The translations under genes and the position numbers were made by a program. The notes below the pieces were generated by a model. It was not told where the DNA came from. It ran no database searches and saw only the letters and a program-made list of their open reading frames with translations. A stretch of DNA of 64,000 nucleotides from Nitzschia sp. pyKryTriq1. Taxonomy: Eukaryota > Bacillariophyta > Bacillariophyceae > Bacillariales > Bacillariaceae. Within the stretch, counting starts at the first letter, position 1. Each line of letters opens with the position of its first letter. The stretch lies in assembly GCA_956465555.1 (NCBI GenBank), contig OY101131.1, forward strand, positions 323,469 to 387,468, in the 5' to 3' direction. This document shows positions 16,149 through 56,701 of this stretch, piece by piece.

Positions 16149-17788
16149 ATGACAGCACTGGGTGATGTCCGATCTTCGGCACCAAAGTTACACGAAACAC
16201 AGAATTGTATGCCTGTAAAGGGGGATGCAACGGAGATGCCAGAGGGTTTTGCTCCTTCGGAGTTTGATGTACTCGTAGGTTGGGCCAGGCAAAACTTTCA
16301 TCATGGTAAGGACATCATAACGCCAATGATCGGAAGCATGGTTCAACTTGTGTTGCTATTGTGTCATGCCATGTGTATTATGCCTTGTGTGCTCTTGTGC
16401 CATGTCCTCACGCAACATTTTGAACTTGTTATTGCCTCTATCACTCCACACCAGCTGGGAACCGACGCTTTCGTGATCTCATCTCCGAAAACGTGCCACG
16501 GTACGTCGAGGCGGATTCCAAGGTCGCTCGGGGACACATTATCGCCGAGATTGTGAGTGAAATGCAACGCAGCTCTCCTTCAGGAACTGGCTTTCTCAAG
16601 ATGAACCCGTACAGTGCGAGATGGACCTTCATCGGTATTGATAAAGCAAAAGACAAGGTCGGGCATGCTCTCCGAAAGGCTTTGATGAGCTCTGAAGCAG
16701 AGGAGCTTCGTGAAAGCGACGACTCGATGAAGCAAAGCAGGGGCGGAAATGAATCCAAGACAATGGGAAGGGATCCGGCGGGATCTCCAATTGTTTCCAA
16801 AAAGCGCAAGGCAACAGCACGAGGACATTGCTCTGCCAATAGCAGCGTTTCTTCAAGCATCCTATCAAAGTCACCAAAGTACACGGGCTACCAAGGGCCC
16901 CTTTTGGTAGACGCTGTATCCTCGACTCCTGCCAACGAAGCAGATCTCACGTCGCTATCAAGATTTTTCACCACTCCTGATGGTCAACACCTGTCGCGGC
17001 AGCTGCCCCCTTCCTCGGGTGAGAACAACAATCCAAACTATGATCCCCCTTTCCTCGGGCTTTCTCCGGTAGCACGCGATATGTTTGATGAAAAACACGC
17101 GGACAGCTCAGAAGGACCAAGCCGTCGATCAAGGACCAAAGTCGTCTCATCAGATACGTCCAACATTTCACTCCAGCGTGACCTGGACCAAGAACATCAT
17201 GATCATCAAGACCGCAGCAGGAGAGGCCGCGTTGCATATCCAGAACAGCGAGCGGCTGCAGCTGGTGGTGCTGGTACCACCATCGTCCCTCCACCAACAC
17301 CATTCCCTGCTCCTGGAGCTGTGGCGCCACACCATTCAATGTATGCGCCGCCGCCGCCGCCACCACCCGGTAGCGCACCCTACTACTACCATCCTTCCTC
17401 CATGGAGCATTCACCAGCAGTCCCACCAATGCGATTTCCACCGTCGCGTGGTGCTCCTCTGTCACCAGCAGGAGGAGGAGCGACGTCAAGAATGCCACCC
17501 CCGCACCAAATGATGCCCCCCGGTGCTGCCGCACAGATTCCACCGCCACCGGGAATGTACTACCATGCTCCTGGATATTACTACTATCATCCTGGTTACA
17601 TGCCACCGCCACCTCCTGGTGCCGGTGCAAACTCAGCTCCGCCATTTTACCCTCCTCCTCCTCCCTACTACCCTCCACCACCACCACATCACCACCACCA
17701 CCACCATCAGCTCGAGGAACAAGGGGAGGACGACGAATTGAACTCTCCTCGTCCGAATGATCCCCTCCCATCGCCTGTTGCCTTGTAA
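16149..17788 (+). CDS. DUF6824-domain protein with Pro/His-rich tail (2 exons)
   Basis: The gene is split. Exon 1 is 16149-16305 and exon 2 is 16455-17788, with a 149-nt GT-AG intron (donor GTAAGG, acceptor CCAG). The split codon restores a continuous FDVLVGWARQNFHHAGNRRF block, giving about 496 aa. Residues about 38-125 form a diatom-expanded domain. It runs DVL.G...N...GN..FR, then Y..A....K..IA..IV, then GTGFLKMNP..ARW, then A.DKVGHALR. I know this as DUF6824. The usual DVLCGRG is altered to DVLVGWA. A regulatory or DNA-related role is often supposed for the family, but none is established to my knowledge. The second half (residues about 300-480) is extremely rich in Pro, Tyr and His (YYHPGYMPPPPPGAG), like an adhesive or phase-separating tail. 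Reading exon 2 alone would truncate the domain. Confidence 0.82.
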
Positions 17789-18994
17789 TATAGCTACTAC
17801 CTAATATTACTACAAAAACCTACAACTAGTAGGCTAGACGAAGAACTCTTGGTGATTACTATTAGTAAGAATACTACTCCTGCTGCTGATGATATTAATA
17901 CTACTACTAAATGCTGACTGCGGCGGCGGTCGATAACCTAATAGTAGTACTACTACTAGTATCTGCTGCTGTCTGCTGTTCTTCTTGCACATTGTTCATT
18001 AGTTCTTAGTCTACGTAGTACACACACACCAGAAAGGTTGTCGCGGCAAAGGAATCGTTGGTAGTAGACTGGTTGTCATTCGGCTACTCTCTACCCTACT
18101 AAAGTGGGAGAAACGGTGGAGCAAAACGCACACAAAGCTCCTTTTTTTCTTGTTGTACTATGAGTACGCAGTGCGCGTAGACTATGCGATACCGGTGGAT
18201 CGTAGCCGTTTGATTTTTTGCTGCAGGAGGGAACAGTATGTGGAAGTTGTCGTTCCACCGACCGGTACTGTACAAGGTATGTGGAGAAGAAAATCCATTG
18301 GGCGCGAAAGAACTCTGCAGAAATAAGGGATGGCATTATGTAATACTTCACAGCAGCATAGCTACAGTAGTTGTTAGTAGCCGTCGTTTGTCGCTGGCTT
18401 CAAGTTGAGCTTTAGTGGTGGTCCCGCAACCTCTTATCTTTGTTGATAATATGCATGCTTGACGAACCTACCGGTACATCTCATTCAGTACGAGTACCGT
18501 ACCTGGTACTGTACTGATCTTTACAGTACCGTACCAGGTACTCTACTGTACGTACCGAAAGCCCGCCTCAGATAGAGCAGAGAGTGGCTCAATTATTTGT
18601 TTGACTTCTCCCGCCCGACTCTGTTGCCATCGGCTGACGGACAGATCTAGGTAGTGGCTCCCTTCTTGGGGGATTTTTGTACCGGTACACATACCGTGTA
18701 CGTATGTGCGGGGGCCTCTGAACTCGGAAATCCTCTACCGCGGCGGGGTAGAGAAGTGAATTGTTTGAATTTTGACCATGGCAGCGATATACGACCGCGG
18801 TGAAGATGCAATATACAATCCGTCGTATGGATAATTCTGCTACTTCAGATACGAGTCGACTACTATAGACTACTACAAGCACAATATCGGGCGAGATCGC
18901 GATTTCCATCAAATCGTCGTCGTCGTCGTCACGCAAAAAGATCGCATCATCACGAAAGAAGACTAATCAAAGACTATTATAGCGGTAGGAGGAT
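17789..18994. other. Intergenic, CTA/TAG- and GTAC-rich
   Basis: No gene is visible. The first 200 nt are dense in CTACTA/TAGTAG repeats. The second half carries many GTAC palindromes (18470-18560 and 18675-18705), including the hairpin listed separately. Confidence 0.5.
18500..18540. repeat. Imperfect hairpin built of GTAC units
   Basis: The left arm TACCTGGTACTGTA (18500-18513) is the reverse complement of the right arm at 18522-18540, apart from a 5-nt insertion (GTACC). The loop is about 8 nt. It lies about 450 bp upstream of the hydrolase start and is part of the GTAC-rich intergenic pattern. Confidence 0.5.
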
Positions 18995-20254
18995 ATGGTG
19001 GTTCTTCTCTGCTGCGCTGCTGCTGCCCGTCGATGTTATTCTTCCTCCTCTCTTTTTTCTTCCAACACGACCACCAAGATTGGAGCCATTGTTTTGGGTC
19101 CCAATCGTCGACGTAGAACGACTGCCACATCCACATCTTTGTGTCCACATGATGTGGAGGATAATTCTTCTTCTTCGACAAGGAGCCGACAACCAAAACG
19201 GTTATTTTCAAGTAATAGTACGAGCCGAACAGGCAGTATTAGTCACATTCCTGCTGCTGCTATTACCGGTATGACCCTGCATGTGGAAACGATTATTCCA
19301 GCATCCAACAACAAAGACGCTCCTGACACTGGCACTACTAGCTGCGGCGATGAAATTGTATTTTTACATGGACTCTTGGGACATGGCCGCAATTTGAAAA
19401 CCTTTGCCAAGCAAGTATGTGAGATCCAACAAAAGAAATGCATTGGGCATTTGATGGATCTACGAGGACACGGTCAGTCGCGACTGGTTGTGAAAGAACC
19501 ATCATCATCACCATCATCCCCATCATCGATCAGTGAAAGTCGCAGGAGTCCTTCCCATCATTCTTTTGCGGCATGTGTAGAAGATATTGCTCATACGGTT
19601 TCGGCACGAAATCTCTCTCCGACTACTTGGGTCGGACATTCCTGGGGTGGCCGTATGGCGTTGCAATATGTCTATGAACAAGTCGTCACGAAGAAGAATA
19701 GCAGCAGCAGCAACAAAAATATCAACAAGATCGATCGTTTGTGGTTGTTGGATGTCGTTCCGGGACAAGCCAATGAAAGTGTGGAGCGCGTGGTCGGAGT
19801 TGTTGCGAAATTGCAAAGTAGTAGTGACGAAAGCATTGGATCCAAAAAGGAATTGGTAGAACGATTGACGGTACGAGAAGGATTTGACATGGCGACGGCT
19901 CAGTGGTTGGCATCCTCGTACAACCCAACAAAGTTAGGAGGAGATTTTGGATTTGATTTGCAGGTGGTCCAGGATATTTTACCGGAATTTGGAACGCAAG
20001 ATTTCGACGGCATGTTAGTTGCGTTATTGGAACATGGGGTTCGTGTGGATTTGGTGCGGGGTGGCAAGAATACCGCGTGGCAAGTTCCGATCTTGAATCG
20101 ATTGGAATCTCTTTCCAAACAAGACTTTCCACAGTTGTTTGGTCTCCACGTGCTGCCCAAGGCAGGACATTGGGTTCACGTCGATGATTTGAAAGGATTG
20201 GTGTCGCTCTTTGCATCATCCTCACCCTCATCATCAGCTGGTCGGTACAGGTAG
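18995..20254 (+). CDS. Alpha/beta hydrolase, ABHD11-like
   Basis: The 419-aa protein starts at the ATG at 18995 with an Arg/Ser-rich, probably mitochondrial, leader of about 100 residues. The fold begins with the oxyanion motif VFLHGLLGHGRNLKTFA near residue 122, then MDLRGHGQSR. The nucleophile elbow is VGHSWGGRMAL at about 212-222 (Ser in GHSWG), and the C-terminal catalytic His lies in AGHWVHVDD at about 389-397. An LDVVPG block after the elbow and a cap with RL..REGF..A..QWL match the ABHD11 (abhydrolase 11) lineage. Members are mitochondrial esterases, or guard lipoylated 2-oxoacid dehydrogenase in animals. Biochemical activity here is inferred. The leader is rich in Ser/Thr and Arg; no in-frame interruption is seen. 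Confidence 0.85.
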   Translation: MVVLLCCAAAARRCYSSSSLFSSNTTTKIGAIVLGPNRRRRTTATSTSLCPHDVEDNSSSSTRSRQPKRLFSSNSTSRTGSISHIPAAAITGMTLHVETIIPASNNKDAPDTGTTSCGDEIVFLHGLLGHGRNLKTFAKQVCEIQQKKCIGHLMDLRGHGQSRLVVKEPSSSPSSPSSISESRRSPSHHSFAACVEDIAHTVSARNLSPTTWVGHSWGGRMALQYVYEQVVTKKNSSSSNKNINKIDRLWLLDVVPGQANESVERVVGVVAKLQSSSDESIGSKKELVERLTVREGFDMATAQWLASSYNPTKLGGDFGFDLQVVQDILPEFGTQDFDGMLVALLEHGVRVDLVRGGKNTAWQVPILNRLESLSKQDFPQLFGLHVLPKAGHWVHVDDLKGLVSLFASSSPSSSAGRYR

Positions 20255-25921: not shown

Positions 25922-27271
25922 TCAATCTTCTTCTACTACGGTAGATGATGATGATGATGATGTCGTGGCGGCCAAAAAGAGAGCTGCCAAAAAGGCCGAC
26001 CCACCGACCATTCCTTGTACACCAATGGTTTCTCCCAAAAAGACAAAACTCATCATGGCCGCCCATAACGGTTGGGACGCATAAATGGTTTGACAACGAG
26101 TCGGTCCGACCGCTTGTTGGCCACCGACTTGTAAAAAGGGTGCGACAGCATTGACTGCGACGCCCGACCAGACAACGACGGGAAGCAAGGCACTCCACGT
26201 CTCAAAGCCGCCGTTCCCATTGCTAAAGCTGCTGTTCATTCTTGTCACATATTCCAACGCTTCGGGACCGCTGACTGCCGCTAATAATAAGACGGACAGA
26301 ATGGCTTGCGTCCCAATCTTGCTGGTAATAAGGTTGCGGGCGGCCACTCGTTTGCCCCAGGCAAACAATCGCAAATCATATGTGGCGTAAAATACGGCCG
26401 CCAACACACAGAGTGCATCGCCCGTGGCCGATGGCGTTCCCGTAGGATCTTGGGTAAAACACACCACCCCGGCCAAGGCCAGGACGATGGACGCTTGGAT
26501 CCTTTGGGGAATCGGGACGCCTTGGATTCCCTGCACCAGGGGAACAATAAGTGTGGTCAATTGGATCAAGAGAGCGCCATGGCCGGCTGTGGTGAGTGCC
26601 AAGCCGTACAAATTGGCGGTGGTTCCCAAGAATTTCCACAATCCCAATTCACAGCCACCCTGCAGCGTCAATCGATCTTGTTCTTCCTGGGATATTATTT
26701 GTTGTTCCAGCAGAGATGATGGAAGGGGCGTATTGGATTCCAAACTTTTACCTCCGACCAAGAGACCTACGAGGGCCACCACGCTGACTGCCGCATTCAA
26801 GAGCAAGACGGGAGGAGCGTTCTCTCCCGATGAAAAGGCGGCGTGCAAGACTGGAGAATTGGAGGCAAATAGAAGAGTAATGGCACCGATAGTAATCAAT
26901 CCCCGTTGATGCTCATCGGCCGCCGACCTCTTTTGATTCTGATTGTAGGTAATGCTGCTGCTGCTGCTGCTGCTGACCATCATGAACGAGGAGTCGTCTG
27001 TGGAGTTTAGAAATCGAGGCCGGGTGGTCGCCATGCGTGACGATGAAGAGGATACATCGGACGACATGAACATGGTGGTCACCAGCTTTGACGGTGATGA
27101 TGCTGATGCTGATGCTGATGGGCGTGCTGCTGTTCGTCCAACTGCTGATGGGGAAAACCCATGGACCAAGCAAGGACAACTACTTCTTTGATCGACCACC
27201 AGAAAAAGAAGAAGAGGGGTCATCGCCAATAAGGCTACCACTGGTGATCGTATTATTAAAGAGGAAACCAT
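25922..27271 (-). CDS. DMT-superfamily (EamA-type) transporter, possibly plastid
   Basis: The 449-aa protein starts with a strong hydrophobic leader (SPVVALLAMTPLLLFLVV). The junction CLVHGFSPSAVGR and a Ser/Ala-rich, basic segment follow. This resembles the signal-plus-transit layout of diatom plastid proteins, although the junction is G-F rather than A-F. After about residue 125 there are eight to ten hydrophobic spans in two halves. Each half has EamA-like features: GLWKFLGTTANLYGLALTTAGHGALLIQLTTLIVPLVQGI in the first and QTIYASQPLWAAMMSFVFLGETIG near the end of the second. The LGE motif before the last helix is typical of EamA drug/metabolite transporters. Substrate unknown. An acidic tail follows an Ala/Ser stretch. 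Confidence 0.78.
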   Translation of the reverse strand: MVSSLIIRSPVVALLAMTPLLLFLVVDQRSSCPCLVHGFSPSAVGRTAARPSASASASSPSKLVTTMFMSSDVSSSSSRMATTRPRFLNSTDDSSFMMVSSSSSSSITYNQNQKRSAADEHQRGLITIGAITLLFASNSPVLHAAFSSGENAPPVLLLNAAVSVVALVGLLVGGKSLESNTPLPSSLLEQQIISQEEQDRLTLQGGCELGLWKFLGTTANLYGLALTTAGHGALLIQLTTLIVPLVQGIQGVPIPQRIQASIVLALAGVVCFTQDPTGTPSATGDALCVLAAVFYATYDLRLFAWGKRVAARNLITSKIGTQAILSVLLLAAVSGPEALEYVTRMNSSFSNGNGGFETWSALLPVVVWSGVAVNAVAPFLQVGGQQAVGPTRCQTIYASQPLWAAMMSFVFLGETIGVQGMVGGSAFLAALFLAATTSSSSSSTVVEED

Positions 27272-27663
27272 TCTTGCCTCTTGAGTTTGATCGATGATGA
27301 TTCGTTTATTACAGTCGATATCTTTTTATGATACTCAACACAATCATCAACCGACTTGCAAATTATGGTACCAGTACCGTACTTGAATGCTCGGAATAAT
27401 GATACCGGTAGTTGTTTACTATGAATAGAGAGGAAGCTGGGGAGTTCCGTCGTTTTCTTTTCTCAGATATAAATATGCCGGCCGTGCAGCAAGTAAGTTC
27501 TTGAAGTTCGTCTTTCTCGCTCCGGCAGATGGAAATCTTTTCAGACGTGGATATTTTCGAATTGGAACCAATCAGACGGATCTATCTTTGACATCACAAA
27601 ACGTGGCAGCGCAGACACGTGGTGGCCACGTGCGCGTGTTTGTGTGTGGTTTTGTTCTTTGTT

Positions 27664-28118
27664 CTACTTTTGAGTGAGTCCCGAGCGTGACGCAATGATG
27701 TTCCACCGCATCGAGTCAGTCGTCATCCAAACGCGCGGACATATGGATGATGATGGCATCTTTGTTGCTGCAACAATAAGGCTATTTCTTCCCCTGACCG
27801 GAAACGGCGAACGGGATGACGAAATCCCGTTTCCCACCCCAATTCGCCAGTTTTGTGTTTCTTCCCGAACCATCCAGTTGCGGGATCTATCATGGTTACG
27901 CACCATAATATAAGGTCTTTGTTGCCTTTGCGGCGAATTTGGTAGGGTCCAATCATGTCTACACATAATTTTTCCCAAGGGTAGCTTTCGGCTTCCTTTT
28001 CGGGCAGATGACCGTATTTCTTTTTAGTCTTCTTGGTCAATTGACATGTGTGGCATGTCGCGCAGGATTCTACGACGTCTGCGCGCGTTTTGGGCCACGT
28101 GAAATTGAGTCTTTGCAA
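27664..28118 (-). mobile_element. Fossil Ty3/gypsy-type LTR retrotransposon fragment (integrase)
   Basis: A reverse-strand stretch encodes part of a retroelement integrase. It has the end of the zinc-binding H2C2 region (CATCHTCQLTKK) followed by the start of the catalytic core (WEKLCVDMIGPY). This order is typical of Ty3/gypsy-like integrases. Only this part of the element is present. No gag, protease, reverse transcriptase or flanking LTRs were recognised, so it is a broken remnant. Related sequence may extend toward 28230. Age cannot be judged beyond saying that it is well decayed. Confidence 0.7.
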
Positions 28119-28333
28119 CGGACGGGGGCCAGTCGTACGTCGCGCGTCTCACACGCACACGAGTCATTACGGGCCGACCACGTCATCGACTGGTCGTGGC
28201 TAGGGCGTCTGCGCATGCACGGCGCGCACTAGCGTGGAAGATCCTTCAGGACATTATCTACCGACGACGGGCAGACTATGGTCGTACGAGTCGCGTAGAC
28301 CGTGTGTATTGCAGTATCGTGTAAAATGTCACC

Positions 28334-28716
28334 TAGTCGATCCGCATTCGGTTAATTCTTCGAAACAGCGAAGCGAGGCATTACCTTCGGCGCAACCAAA
28401 GGAGAGAACGCAGGAGAGCCGGTGCGAACCAAATCTTCGCATCCCTCCTGTTCTTTTTCTTTTTCCGGAACAATTGACCTCCCTCCTTCATCAAACTGTG
28501 CAACGCTGCTGTACGATCCTCCTTTAATCTTTTGGAAGAAGAAGAACACGAATGCGCTGGGTCGTACATAGTCGATCCCCATTCGGTTAATTCTTCGAAA
28601 CAGCGAAGCGAGGCATTGCCTTCGGCGCAACCAAAGGAGAGAACGCAGGAGAGCCGGTGCGAACCAAACCTTCGCATCCCTCCTGTTCTTTTTCTTTTTC
28701 CGGAACAATTGACCTC
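28334..28716. repeat. Direct duplication, two 148-bp copies
   Basis: Copies at 28334-28481 and 28569-28716 are offset by 235 bp and differ at about three positions, so the duplication is fairly recent. Each begins TAGTCGATCC and ends ACAATTGACCTC. The 87 bp between them are not repeated. The second copy ends 137 bp before the COX-like start codon, so both may sit in its upstream region. Open frames through the copies look like by-products of the duplication. Confidence 0.85.
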
Positions 28717-28853: not shown

Positions 28854-30767
28854 ATGATCCTGTCGGCGTTATCCCTTACCTTCCTTTTGACCCGGATCAA
28901 TGCAGAGTTGACATCCCAAGAAACAAATGCACTATCTATCGGCGCGACATCAATGCTAGGACTAACCAGACCTGACCAGTTTTCCACCGGAATGGCTTAT
29001 ACCAGCTGGGAAAGCCTTACCGATCGGTCCTACTACGATCGTCAAATCAAGGCTGCACCCCAAGATTGGGTGGATAGCCTACCTTCACTTGACGATGTCT
29101 CTGAACTCTTTGTCAACCCCCAAGACGGCGTGAGAAAGTACTCATTGTACAGTACCATGCTTCTTCCTATTTTTGCCGACTATCTTACAGAGGGATTCAT
29201 TTATCCCGACAACTATCAAAACTCGGATATGCCATTCAACTATGGAAAGGTAGGACCGTTCAGGCTGATGTCCACATCAGATGCAGCACCACAATACTCC
29301 AGAGCATGCGGCGAAGATTGTGTTTCTGGTATATTGTCTCTCACATTGGCATACCCTACACGCGTTTTTTTCTTTTCATAGACCTTGACCAACCATAACA
29401 TTGACATGTTTCCTTTGTATGGACGCACAATCGACCAGACGCATGCCCTCCGTACAATGGTGGAAACAGATGGAATGAAGGGCCGTTTGAAGTCCCAGAT
29501 CGTTGAAAACGGGGAAGAGTATCCCCCCTTTCTGTATGATTCCAATGGTGAGATCTATCCAGAGTTCCAAGTCCTCGACCAACCTACAGTTCGTAATATT
29601 GGTGAAGAAGAAAACGCTACATCTACTTCTACCGTAGGCTGCCCCCTCATGAGCAACCTGGAGAACAAAGACGATTTCCTGGCAGTTGGACATCCTGGCA
29701 TCAATTTGCTTCCAACACTTGTTGCCATGGATACTTTGTTCCTTCGGGAGCACAACCGCATAGCGGGAGAGCTTGAAAAAGAATACCCTGATTGGGACGA
29801 TGAGCGAGTCTTCCAAACCACCCGGAACATCGTTATTGCTATCTACTGCAAGATTGTCATTGAAGAATACATTGCTCATCTTGGTCATACCACCTGCCCT
29901 AAAGTAGATCCCACACCGTCTCTGTGGGATGCGCCATGGTACAAGACGAATTGGATCAATGCTGAATTTGCAGTTATGTACCGGTGGCATACACTTCAGC
30001 CAAGTTACATGAAGCTTGGGGATAACAACATGACAATTCTGGAATCTCTTTTCAGAACCGATTTGCTCCTCGACGGAAATGTTTCCCTGAAACAACTGTT
30101 CCTTGACGTTAGCAGTCAACCGGCTGCCTCCTTTGAAGCCTTCAATACTGATCCATATTTAGTTGCCCGTGATCAGCAATCGGTGAAGATCTCTCGTGCA
30201 CTTCAGCTTGCTCCCTTTGCTGATTACATGGAATTCTATGGCGAATCTCGGCCTCAAACGTTTCAGGACATCACTACTAACCCAGTGGTCCTTGCAAAGC
30301 TCAAGGAATTGTACCGTACTGTTGATGATGTTGAGTTTTTCGTTGGGCTTATGATTCAAGACAAGAAGGGTCCATCATCGATCTTTTCTCCGACGATGAA
30401 TATGGCTGTGGCGAGGGATGCCTTCAGCCAGGCTTTGACCAACCCTCTTTTCAGCCAGCATGTCTGGAATGAAGAAACGTTCAGCTCGCATGGGTGGAGC
30501 TTGGTGAATCAGCCCCAAAGTATGCAAGGTGTTGTCGATCGTAACACCGGGACAGGCGAAATGGGTTATGTTGGTTTCTACATGGACCCTCCCACACAAG
30601 ATAAGTGCCCATTGGTGGCAGGTGATGACTACCCGTTCCCAGCATCTTCTCCTCAGACAGCACCAAAATCAAGTACTACTTCGGATAGAAACTCAAAGAC
30701 ATCCATCATGCTGAGTTCATTGATAGCATTACTATCCATGAGCTGGAGAATCTTCTCTACCAACTGA
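28854..30767 (+). CDS. Cyclooxygenase-like (prostaglandin G/H synthase family) haem dioxygenase, 2 exons
   Basis: Exon 1 is 28854-29249 and exon 2 is 29382-30767. The 132-nt intron has donor AAG|GTAGGA and a pyrimidine-rich CATAG acceptor, phase 0, giving about 593 aa. A signal peptide (MILSALSLTFLLTRINA) leads. Hand alignment to animal COX matches SWESLTDRSYYDR (51-63), NHNIDMFPLYGRTIDQTHALR, DTLFLREHNRIAGELEKEYP, FQTTRNIVIAIYCKIVIEEYI and EFAVMYRWHTLQP. Tyr332 and His335 align with the catalytic Tyr385 and haem ligand His388, and Ser512 with the aspirin-site Ser530. The distal peroxidase residues Gln203 and His207 align with Asp109 and Glu113. The EGF and membrane-binding domains of animal COX are absent. 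Instead the protein ends in a Ser/Thr stretch and a hydrophobic tail (about 572-587), which could be a tail or GPI anchor. Fatty-acid dioxygenase activity is inferred; diatoms are known to make prostaglandins. Other members of the peroxidase-COX superfamily (diol-synthase or alpha-dioxygenase type) are the alternative. Confidence 0.85.
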
Positions 30768-55115: not shown

Positions 55116-56701
55116 ATGAACGTAGCCCAATCACTCCAACGAGAGAGACCTCTTTTATCAGAAGTCGGGCCGCGTGATGTCCTGCTGGGACGAGGTAAGA
55201 ACTGCACAATCGTTTCGCCTTACACCGAGAAAATAGCTAATAGATCTTCTGCTTCTAATCGCTCGATTGTAATTGCTTCCTCGCTCGCTCAGGAACTGGC
55301 CCCAATGAGAACCAAGGCAATAAGCTATTCCGTGACGTTTTGAAGAAGCACAAAGAAGAATACCACAATGCAGCATCGAGAAAGGAGAAGAGAGAGGTTG
55401 TTTCAAAAGCGCTCGAAGAATTTAAGGAAAAGGGTGGACGCTTTGTTGAAAAGGTAGTGCTTTCATCGAAACTAGACCAAGTAGCGGACCATCGCTATGT
55501 GGTTGTTGAAGGTGCGGCGGTATTTATGAAAGCTCGCCAGGCATTTCGATACCTTCTTCGAGGTTACGAGTCCAAGAAACAAAGCGCCCGGTCCCACAAT
55601 GAAGAAGAACCCAACAACACAAGTACAACCGCTTCATCGACAGCAAGCGAGAGAAAATCATCCTCTCAAGGTGGCACGCCCAGCGAACATGCCCACCCCG
55701 GAAGTCTTCGATCCGTTGCGCCGGTTGCTCGAGAGGTACAGCGGCTAGGCGGCGTTCGCGAGGCGACCTCTAGCGAGCTTGGCCTGGAGCACCTTGCCTC
55801 GCTGACAGAGTCGCCCCTGCTTGCCGGGCTTCGAGGAGCTTACCTCCCACATTCGTGGAGACTTCAACAATCTCCCATTGCGGGGATATCAGGAAATATG
55901 TTCGCCTCCACCGCCGATCTAATCAGGAATTCGAGAAATTCCGTATTGAACTCGCCATTTGCTCATGGTGGCAATACAGTGTTATCGCGAAGGCCCAATA
56001 TCAATGATACAAGAATAGGCGCAGACATTGGACGAGTACCATTGCTTTCAAGCATCTCACCATTTTCACCCCGAGACTCGCTGCTTGAAACTTCTCTGGG
56101 GAGATTGTCGAGCTCGAGTTCTCCGCTGGTAAGAAATCGTCACCCAGTGGACAATGTTCTATTCGAGAACATCGATAATCTCATTCCACAATCCCTTGCC
56201 GCCGAAACTCGTTCCTTCCAGCGACTAGGACTCCCGTCACAAAACACGGCATCAGACACGATATCGCGTGCAGCCCACATCGTGGAACAAGTTGCAATCG
56301 AACATGCCATTGAGAAGCATCGGCATGAGAAGATTCAAAACCATATCTCTGCGATTCTTGCTGCTCCAAACCTTGAAGCTCTAGGCAGTGGCGCAGCCGC
56401 AGGATTTCCACAACTCCAGCAGCAAGGTGACCTAGAAAAGACACAAATGCTACGGTCTCAGCTTTGTGCTTCAAGATTTCATGCTTTGGGTGCTGCCACA
56501 GCGCCGCAAATTCTAGATGATATCGAAAAGTCACAACGAGCACTCGAGGAGCGCCGTCGGCAGGCAACTCTTCATCAGCTCTTTGCCGCTTTTCCTGGTG
56601 GCAGAAACCCTTTCTCGACCGGCAGCAGAGGATCTTCTGGTGCTGAACACCCAACGCACTTCGTGCAGGAAAGTTTTGAAAGGTCGGGTTTGTATTATTG
56701 A
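55116..56701 (+). CDS. DUF6824-domain protein, second copy (2 exons)
   Basis: Exon 1 is 55116-55194 and exon 2 is 55293-56701, with a 98-nt GT-AG intron (donor GTAAGA, acceptor TCAG), phase 1. The joined codon gives RDVLLGRGTGPNENQGNKLF, the canonical family start. Then come KEEYHNAASRKEKREVVSKALEEFK, KGGRFVEKV and, after YVVVEG, AVFMKARQAFRYLLR. The product is about 495 aa with the DUF6824 domain at roughly 19-120. The rest is a long region of Ser, Leu and charged residues with amphipathic stretches (about 320-450, including HIVEQVAIEHAIEKHRHEKIQ), possibly coiled. Compared with the copy at 16149-17788, the DVLxGRG motif is intact and the Pro/His tail is absent. A nuclear regulatory role is a guess. 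Confidence 0.82.

Follow-up and report, generated by a model that had tools for sequence, protein, structure and literature searches.

A probable linoleate-10S-dioxygenase-like protein of bacterial type in a diatom, with carboxylates at the distal haem positions

I analysed a 64,000-nucleotide stretch of genomic DNA from the diatom Nitzschia sp. pyKryTriq1 (hereafter the window), and identified at positions 28854–30767 a gene that probably represents a diatom member of the bacterial linoleate-10S-dioxygenase (10S-DOX)-like branch of the peroxidase-cyclooxygenase superfamily; as judged from its sequence, its product would be hydroperoxide-making and primed by an outside peroxide. By scores and, with the reservation of the AU tests below, by trees, this bacterial family is closer to the window protein than any other group searched. 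A distal carboxylate instead of histidine is present, as Glu113 (counting Glu here is a judgement), and the distal Gln and Arg of the bacterial family are absent, with Asp109 and Gly238 in their places. Also absent are several features of animal cyclooxygenase (COX), namely the distal His207 and Gln203, Ser530, the EGF domain and a full membrane-binding domain. The literature already contains reports of COX-like genes of bacterial type in diatoms (PMC7096440), and the remaining novelty lies in a single eukaryotic copy whose distal set reads as all-carboxylate.

The gene is encoded by two exons on the plus strand, with a spliced product of 593 residues. Exon 1 (28854..29249, residues 1–132) is an open frame starting from ATG, which aligns to the bacterial relatives and is found by the family profile with an E-value of 2.5e-26. 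Exon 2 (29382..30767, residues 133–593 and the stop) matches the family profile with an E-value of 6e-145, and the Pfam domain An_peroxidase (PF03098) spans residues 137–523 of the spliced protein (E 1.4e-42, 146.5 bits for a cut-off of 25). NCBIfam returned no family for exon 2, nor for its bacterial relative L012. The intron between these exons (29250..29381, 132 nt) is of the spliceosomal type, GT..AG with a pyrimidine-rich 3' end, and is in frame, ending in TAG. It had been proposed in the initial annotation, and is supported by the alignment: both flanks of the junction (NYGK/TLTNHNID) align to intron-less bacterial proteins, and no counterpart to the intron translation aligned in the bacterial relatives. 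In an AlphaFold2 model with the intron read through (model residues 133–176), the three ten-residue blocks fully inside the intron have pLDDT values of 35–36, which lends the splice weak backing, the exon-1 block directly before the intron being also low (pLDDT 43). The gene model appears well supported.

The N-terminal region is short, and opens with a hydrophobic leader (residues 1–17, 28854..28904) that has the highest 15-residue hydropathy in the protein. This is likely a signal peptide, with a putative cleavage site after INA. At the other end, the hydrophobic tail described previously is also seen in the hydropathy profile, and corresponds to a helix predicted at low confidence (residues 571–591, 30696..30758), possibly a GPI signal or anchor. 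The protein indeed lacks an EGF domain, with no Pfam EGF match up to an E-value of 1. The membrane-binding domain, in contrast, had been called absent but is shortened instead, as a stretch that aligns to the end of the N-terminal region in the bacterial proteins is kept. A six-frame search of the window with the family profile (pieces of at least 30 residues) found no further family member at E-values up to 1.

The AlphaFold2 model shows pLDDT values of 85–98 across most core blocks, and the protein is predicted to have a cyclooxygenase fold. In a Foldseek search against the PDB, ranks 1–35 are all COX-1 or COX-2 (best E 6.8e-30, TM ∼0.78 by target), and below these are found a Dictyostelium peroxidase, alpha-dioxygenase and myeloperoxidase. 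The plant alpha-dioxygenases possess the superfamily fold (TM ∼0.56 by target), but their fold score is more distant than that of COX. The best sequence match in the PDB is also a COX-1 chain (5u6x, in sheep COX-1 numbering; E 2.2e-53).

The closest sequences found are nevertheless bacterial. Among the phmmer matches listed, two from Nitrosospira multiformis (L012 and L022) score highest, with 384 bits versus 185 bits for sheep COX-1, and the closest bacterial sequences, "peroxidase family" proteins, share ∼42% identity with the window protein. When the exon 2 protein was searched against 72,556 plasmid records, 29 of them had a match, the nine best being alphaproteobacterial and Acaryochloris proteins with 34–39% identity. 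A scan of one genome per species across 84,980 prokaryote species gave 439 relatives, and the best 80 of these 439 were taken; one of the two patterns employed spanned the distal helix and allowed only Q/D and D/E there, and this sample is therefore biased. I also used profile searches that are free of this pattern, with a profile that was itself built from rows having that helix. Of the 1374 genomes drawn, 59 had any match at 1e-20, and 27 ORFs scored at least 400 bits, five of which had already been recovered in the first sample. Genomes matching at 1e-20 were 22/386 for the phylum of G001, 7/398 for that of G005, 6/296 for that of G006 and 24/294 for that of G007, many of the matches being low-scoring other peroxidases. 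No relative was found in two viral-contig scans (with exon 2 and with alignment A1), or in a search of phage records with the exon-2 protein; these scans thus gave no hint that viruses carry the gene.

Three trees were computed, the first with 101 rows kept (23 near-duplicates and fragments left out), the second with 63 rows (COX-1, eight outgroup rows, L074, L086, L094, L002 and 25 more for thinning being dropped) and the third with 48 rows, including COX-1. The window protein is found among the bacterial rows in all three. In the 63-row tree it is nested in a group consisting mostly of Pseudomonadota (support 98/98), on a long end branch (∼2.1), and the cyanobacterial 10S-DOX-like rows belong to a different group; its placement in the 48-row tree is the same, and COX-1 is located elsewhere, weakly. 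In the 101-row tree, four bacterial outgroup rows, taken as alpha-DOX-like, fall outside the family. AU tests are more permissive: in the tree including COX-1 and outgroups, pairing the window protein with COX-1 is not rejected (p 0.519, the constrained tree being slightly better), and neither is a constraint that excludes it from the Pseudomonadota-rich group of 43 rows (p 0.26). Animal-type COX parentage, as initially suggested, is thus at odds with the bit scores and with the bacterial placement in three trees, although the AU tests still allow the COX-1 pairing. On similarity the bacterial kinship is clear, with PDB entries only as the eukaryotic comparison.

I compared the active site with that of COX-1 and of the full set of 90 bacterial rows, which retains close relatives. 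The assignment of Tyr332 (29979..29981) to the radical Tyr385 of COX, and of His335 (29988..29990) to the proximal haem ligand His388, is confirmed by this alignment, and Tyr295 (29868..29870) corresponds to Tyr348; all three are found in 90/90 bacterial rows. The equivalent of COX Trp387 is also kept, and invariant in the 90 rows, such that the window sequence Y332-R-W-H335 is the family YRWH motif. Three further sequence blocks had been listed as kept; REHNR is present, SWESF is found as SWESL, and the YG block exists as PLYG and not as IYG.

The substrate channel differs from that of animal COX. Ser512 (30519..30521), earlier taken as the Ser530 of COX, aligns with a later COX-1 Thr, and the Ser530 equivalence is wrong: Ser530 pairs with Ala479 (30420..30422) and Phe529 with Asp478. 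Both residues are invariant in the bacterial rows (A and D in 90/90), and the published 10S-DOX of Nostoc has Ala487 opposite Ser530 and Ile483 opposite Gly526 (PMC13049297). At the position of Gly526 the window protein has Val475 (V in 83 and I in 7 of the 90 rows), and Gly533, Tyr355, Leu534 and Leu384 are replaced by Gln482, Thr302, Ala483 and Met331, respectively. The resulting motif, D478-A479-F480-S-Q482-A483, is largely that of the bacteria (D 90, A 90, F 86, Q 86 and A 84 of 90), and DAFxQA is common to the window protein, the bacteria and the published Nostoc 10S-DOX motif, but not to COX. Replacement of COX Gly526, Ser530, Leu534 or Leu384 is reported to be able to raise HPETE by-products; the window residues at these positions are Val475, Ala479, Ala483 and Met331.

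On the distal side, in a helix spanning residues 103–115 of the AlphaFold2 model, the alignment places Asp109 (29178..29180) at the position of COX Gln203 and Glu113 (29190..29192) at that of the distal His207, as the initial annotation had it. The bacterial rows have Q (89/90) or M (1/90) at the former, and D in 90/90 at the latter. The description of a lost distal Gln/His is therefore correct for the positions, but needs rewording as regards His, whose column is Asp in all bacterial rows. The possibility that misalignment masks a distal-helix His was considered and rejected: the protein possesses no His before residue 137, and none can therefore sit on this helix. As Asp occupies this column in the 90 bacterial rows and in Nostoc 10S-DOX (F143-tds-F opposite F205-thq-F in COX; PMC13049297), this lineage probably never had a distal His, the lack of which would be a family trait, mostly inherited. 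Since Nostoc 10S-DOX also has Asp there, the absence of His is in itself no pointer to an unusual activity. More broadly, the distal motif of the superfamily is reported to usually contain His, except in families 4 and 7 (PMC4420034). What looks peculiar to the window copy is the change of Gln to Asp, of Asp to Glu and of Arg to Gly, the latter at Gly238 (29697..29699, the position of COX Val291), where 85/90 bacterial rows have R; this loss was absent from the earlier description.

The window protein departs at 10 of the 77 positions conserved in at least 95% of the bacterial rows, keeping 67; in a leave-one-out count over the 90 rows the mean is 1.6 departures, and just three rows exceed the 10 of the window protein (18, 15 and 12). 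In the distal helix region, residues 104, 109, 113 and 117 differ from near-invariant bacterial letters, corresponding to 4/11 conserved positions changed versus 6/66 elsewhere (Fisher one-sided p 0.031, looked for after seeing the changes), which suggests, weakly, an excess of changes in the distal helix. In the profile-found ORF set, 26/27 hold the distal helix, with D in 26/26, Q in 25/26 and R in 22/26, and single bacterial rows without Gln (M or A) or without Arg occur. Three of the loci (L131, L132 and L133, from the phylum of G006) have Thr at the Arg position, and L132 also has Ala at the Gln position; these are natural losses within the distal set.

From the gene, its family, its residues and its predicted fold, I infer a reaction, its priming, a product and a location. 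Haem would be bound via His335, and oxidised by an external hydroperoxide, with Glu113, perhaps together with Asp109, as the acid-base group replacing histidine. The oxidised haem would turn Tyr332 into a radical able to remove a hydrogen from its substrate, a polyunsaturated fatty acid, and addition of O2 at one position would then yield the corresponding hydroperoxide. As the distal side has neither Gln nor Arg, little peroxidase turnover is expected, in which case the hydroperoxide would be the released product, to be processed by other enzymes. The product is thus most likely a hydroperoxide rather than a prostaglandin, and the likely signal peptide and the hydrophobic tail at the C-terminus point to secretion or membrane anchoring. 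Outside-peroxide priming and a different oxylipin, both proposed in the initial annotation, remain reasonable, as they fit a distal side that has lost Gln and Arg and a substrate channel in which Ser530, Gly526 and Gly533 are replaced. 10S-DOX is active with a distal Asp, and a carboxylate at this position is therefore compatible with activity; on the other hand, the long branch and the 10/77 conserved positions changed indicate that the function may have changed.

The nearest characterized system is the linoleate 10S-dioxygenase of Nostoc punctiforme (B2J5P4), which oxidises oleate and linoleate, with a simple hydroperoxide as its reported product (PMC13049297). Five of the bacterial loci (L101, L102, L103, L104 and L107) match the printed 10S-DOX numbering when read as 542 residues, and are taken as its close orthologues. 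The window protein shares with this enzyme and its bacterial kin the family, by score and motifs, the distal carboxylate, the Tyr385, Tyr348 and His388 equivalents, the Ala at the Ser530 position and the DAFxQA motif. In contrast, it has distal Glu for Asp, Asp for Gln and Gly for Arg; its N-terminal region is shorter, it has a likely signal peptide as well as a tail at the C-terminus, and it falls in another part of the tree.

An alternative is that the protein is a working cyclooxygenase that converts arachidonate or EPA to prostaglandins, the role claimed for the COX of Thalassiosira rotula (TrotCOX), and it shares with animal COX-1 and COX-2 the fold and the Tyr385, Tyr348, Trp387 and His388 equivalents. 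T. rotula cultures make prostaglandins, and TrotCOX, which is expressed and credited with them, has been described with 28% identity to sheep COX-1 (PMC7096440). I take TrotCOX to belong to the family of the window protein. Its R371-x-H373 corresponds to R333-W-H335, and the host is also a diatom. However, unlike animal COX, the window protein lacks the EGF domain and the distal His and Gln, and has Ser530, Gly526, Gly533 and Tyr355 replaced by Ala479, Val475, Gln482 and Thr302; its relatives resemble 10S-DOX, reported as a maker of simple hydroperoxides. The T. rotula case itself appears to be built on expression and culture metabolites, not on a purified enzyme (PMC7096440). I therefore regard this alternative as unlikely.

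Nor is TrotCOX identical to the window protein on the distal side. Its distal residues are named as Q, R and D, with residue conservation reported across its diatom clade (PMC7096440), for D, G and E in the window protein; the TrotCOX set is known by published description only. Its R275 would be the Arg of the bacterial distal set, given a spacing of 98 to the proximal His versus 97 in 73/90 and 98 in 3/90 bacterial rows. The same study places diatom COX-like proteins in several clades, one of which is common to Nostoc and actinobacteria, names a diatom/bacterial clade "5a", and describes a Glu to Leu replacement in all diatoms examined (PMC7096440). The matching column is Ser, Ala, Val or Thr in at least 82/90 bacterial rows, and this replacement may thus be a family trait. 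COX has also been reported in two dinoflagellates, in an account without active-site detail (PMC7073720). Searches of the literature on diatom COX, 10S-DOX and diatom haem dioxygenases, covering the opening lines of abstracts, revealed no D/E/G distal set.

It is also conceivable, but distinctly unlikely, that the distal side is too altered for compound I to form, leaving a relic, whether haem-binding or structural, or a protein with a non-catalytic role. The bacterial distal Gln, Asp and Arg are all changed, and the branch is long, which counts for a relic; yet the 593-residue frame is open, the radical Tyr, the proximal His and 67/77 near-invariant positions are kept, and single bacterial rows have also dispensed with Gln or Arg. 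Finally, it is very unlikely that Glu113 makes the protein a peroxygenase or hydroperoxide isomerase, splitting a fatty-acid hydroperoxide and giving the oxygen back to the substrate: while Asp/Glu/Gly stand in place of Gln/Asp/Arg, and the distal acid-base residue of chloroperoxidase and of the unspecific (fungal) peroxygenases is a Glu, which counts for such a role, these enzymes have a proximal Cys, whereas the proximal ligand in the window protein is His, which favours one-electron chemistry.

For a hydroperoxide-making dioxygenase primed from outside, a more specific proposal is that Asp109 and Glu113 activate peroxide without distal His, Gln or Arg, which would constitute a third distal-pocket solution in the superfamily, besides His/Gln in COX and Asp/Gln/Arg in the bacterial dioxygenases. 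This is tentative, and I consider it doubtful on present sequence comparisons. If true, radical formation in a two-carboxylate pocket would no longer be coupled to peroxidase turnover, and unreduced hydroperoxide would be released at the cell surface. The natural series formed by His/Gln (COX), Asp/Gln/Arg (bacteria) and Glu/Asp/Gly (window protein) offers a direct test of the extent to which the distal pocket is required for the tyrosyl radical versus for peroxide reduction. There are also implications for diatom "COX" genes, which serve the argument for an animal-like prostaglandin pathway in microalgae: if these are bacterial-type dioxygenases, this argument needs enzyme assays, not homology.

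The gene neighbourhoods of 106 bacterial loci (near-duplicates included) were also analysed for possible partners. In 26/106 loci, a member of one catalase-related gene group (grouped by BLAST) is encoded no more than 2.5 kb from the dioxygenase; 19 of these share its strand and 7 are on the opposite one. When 17 of its 27 ORFs were scanned, 10 reached the Pfam catalase cut-off (one exactly), two were below it and five had no match. An upstream P450-type ORF with an H-x-C-x-G haem motif, the motif named for fungal P450 partners (PMC13049297), is found in 8/106 loci (L001, L006, L008, L052, L082, L085, L087 and L089); seven pass the Pfam p450 cut-off, and that of L001 is just under but annotated as P450. 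Catalase- and P450-type partners are reported to process fatty-acid hydroperoxides (PMC13049297), and the bacterial neighbours would fit a sequence of fatty acid release, dioxygenation, then hydroperoxide processing. However, partner genes occur in a minority of the bacterial loci only, which counts against the hydroperoxide reading. In the window, no P450 or catalase was identified by Pfam in the 18 ORFs scanned, out of 38 ORFs of at least 180 residues.

Several of the bacterial arrangements can be described in their own right. The pairs of dioxygenase and H-x-C-x-G P450 genes are an unfused counterpart to the fungal dioxygenase-P450 fusions. A catalase-related domain is fused to the dioxygenase in two of four long frames scanned (L033:1526-4312 and L056:3774-6434), and in L109:262-3114 a phospholipase-like domain is fused to the dioxygenase in a single open frame. 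L107:385-4374 holds three adjacent genes, namely a phospholipase-like gene upstream, the 10S-DOX orthologue and a catalase-related gene, whose stop-bounded frames are separated by 64 and 4 nt.

Elsewhere in the window, an alpha/beta hydrolase is encoded at 18989-20254, to which I draw no link from the dioxygenase gene, and two separate genes at 16424-17788 and 55259-56701 possess the uncharacterised DUF6824 domain by Pfam. An EamA transporter with a plastid-leader-like N-terminus is located at 25922-27325. DUF6824 and such a leader are both linked to diatoms, and along with the spliceosomal-type intron they suggest that the host is a diatom or closely related. The transporter is followed on the minus strand by an ORF (27723-28148) that, by eye, resembles a retrotransposon integrase fragment. 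Directly upstream of the dioxygenase gene is a 151-nt direct repeat (28331-28481 and 28566-28716), the copies of which are 97% identical and start 235 nt apart.
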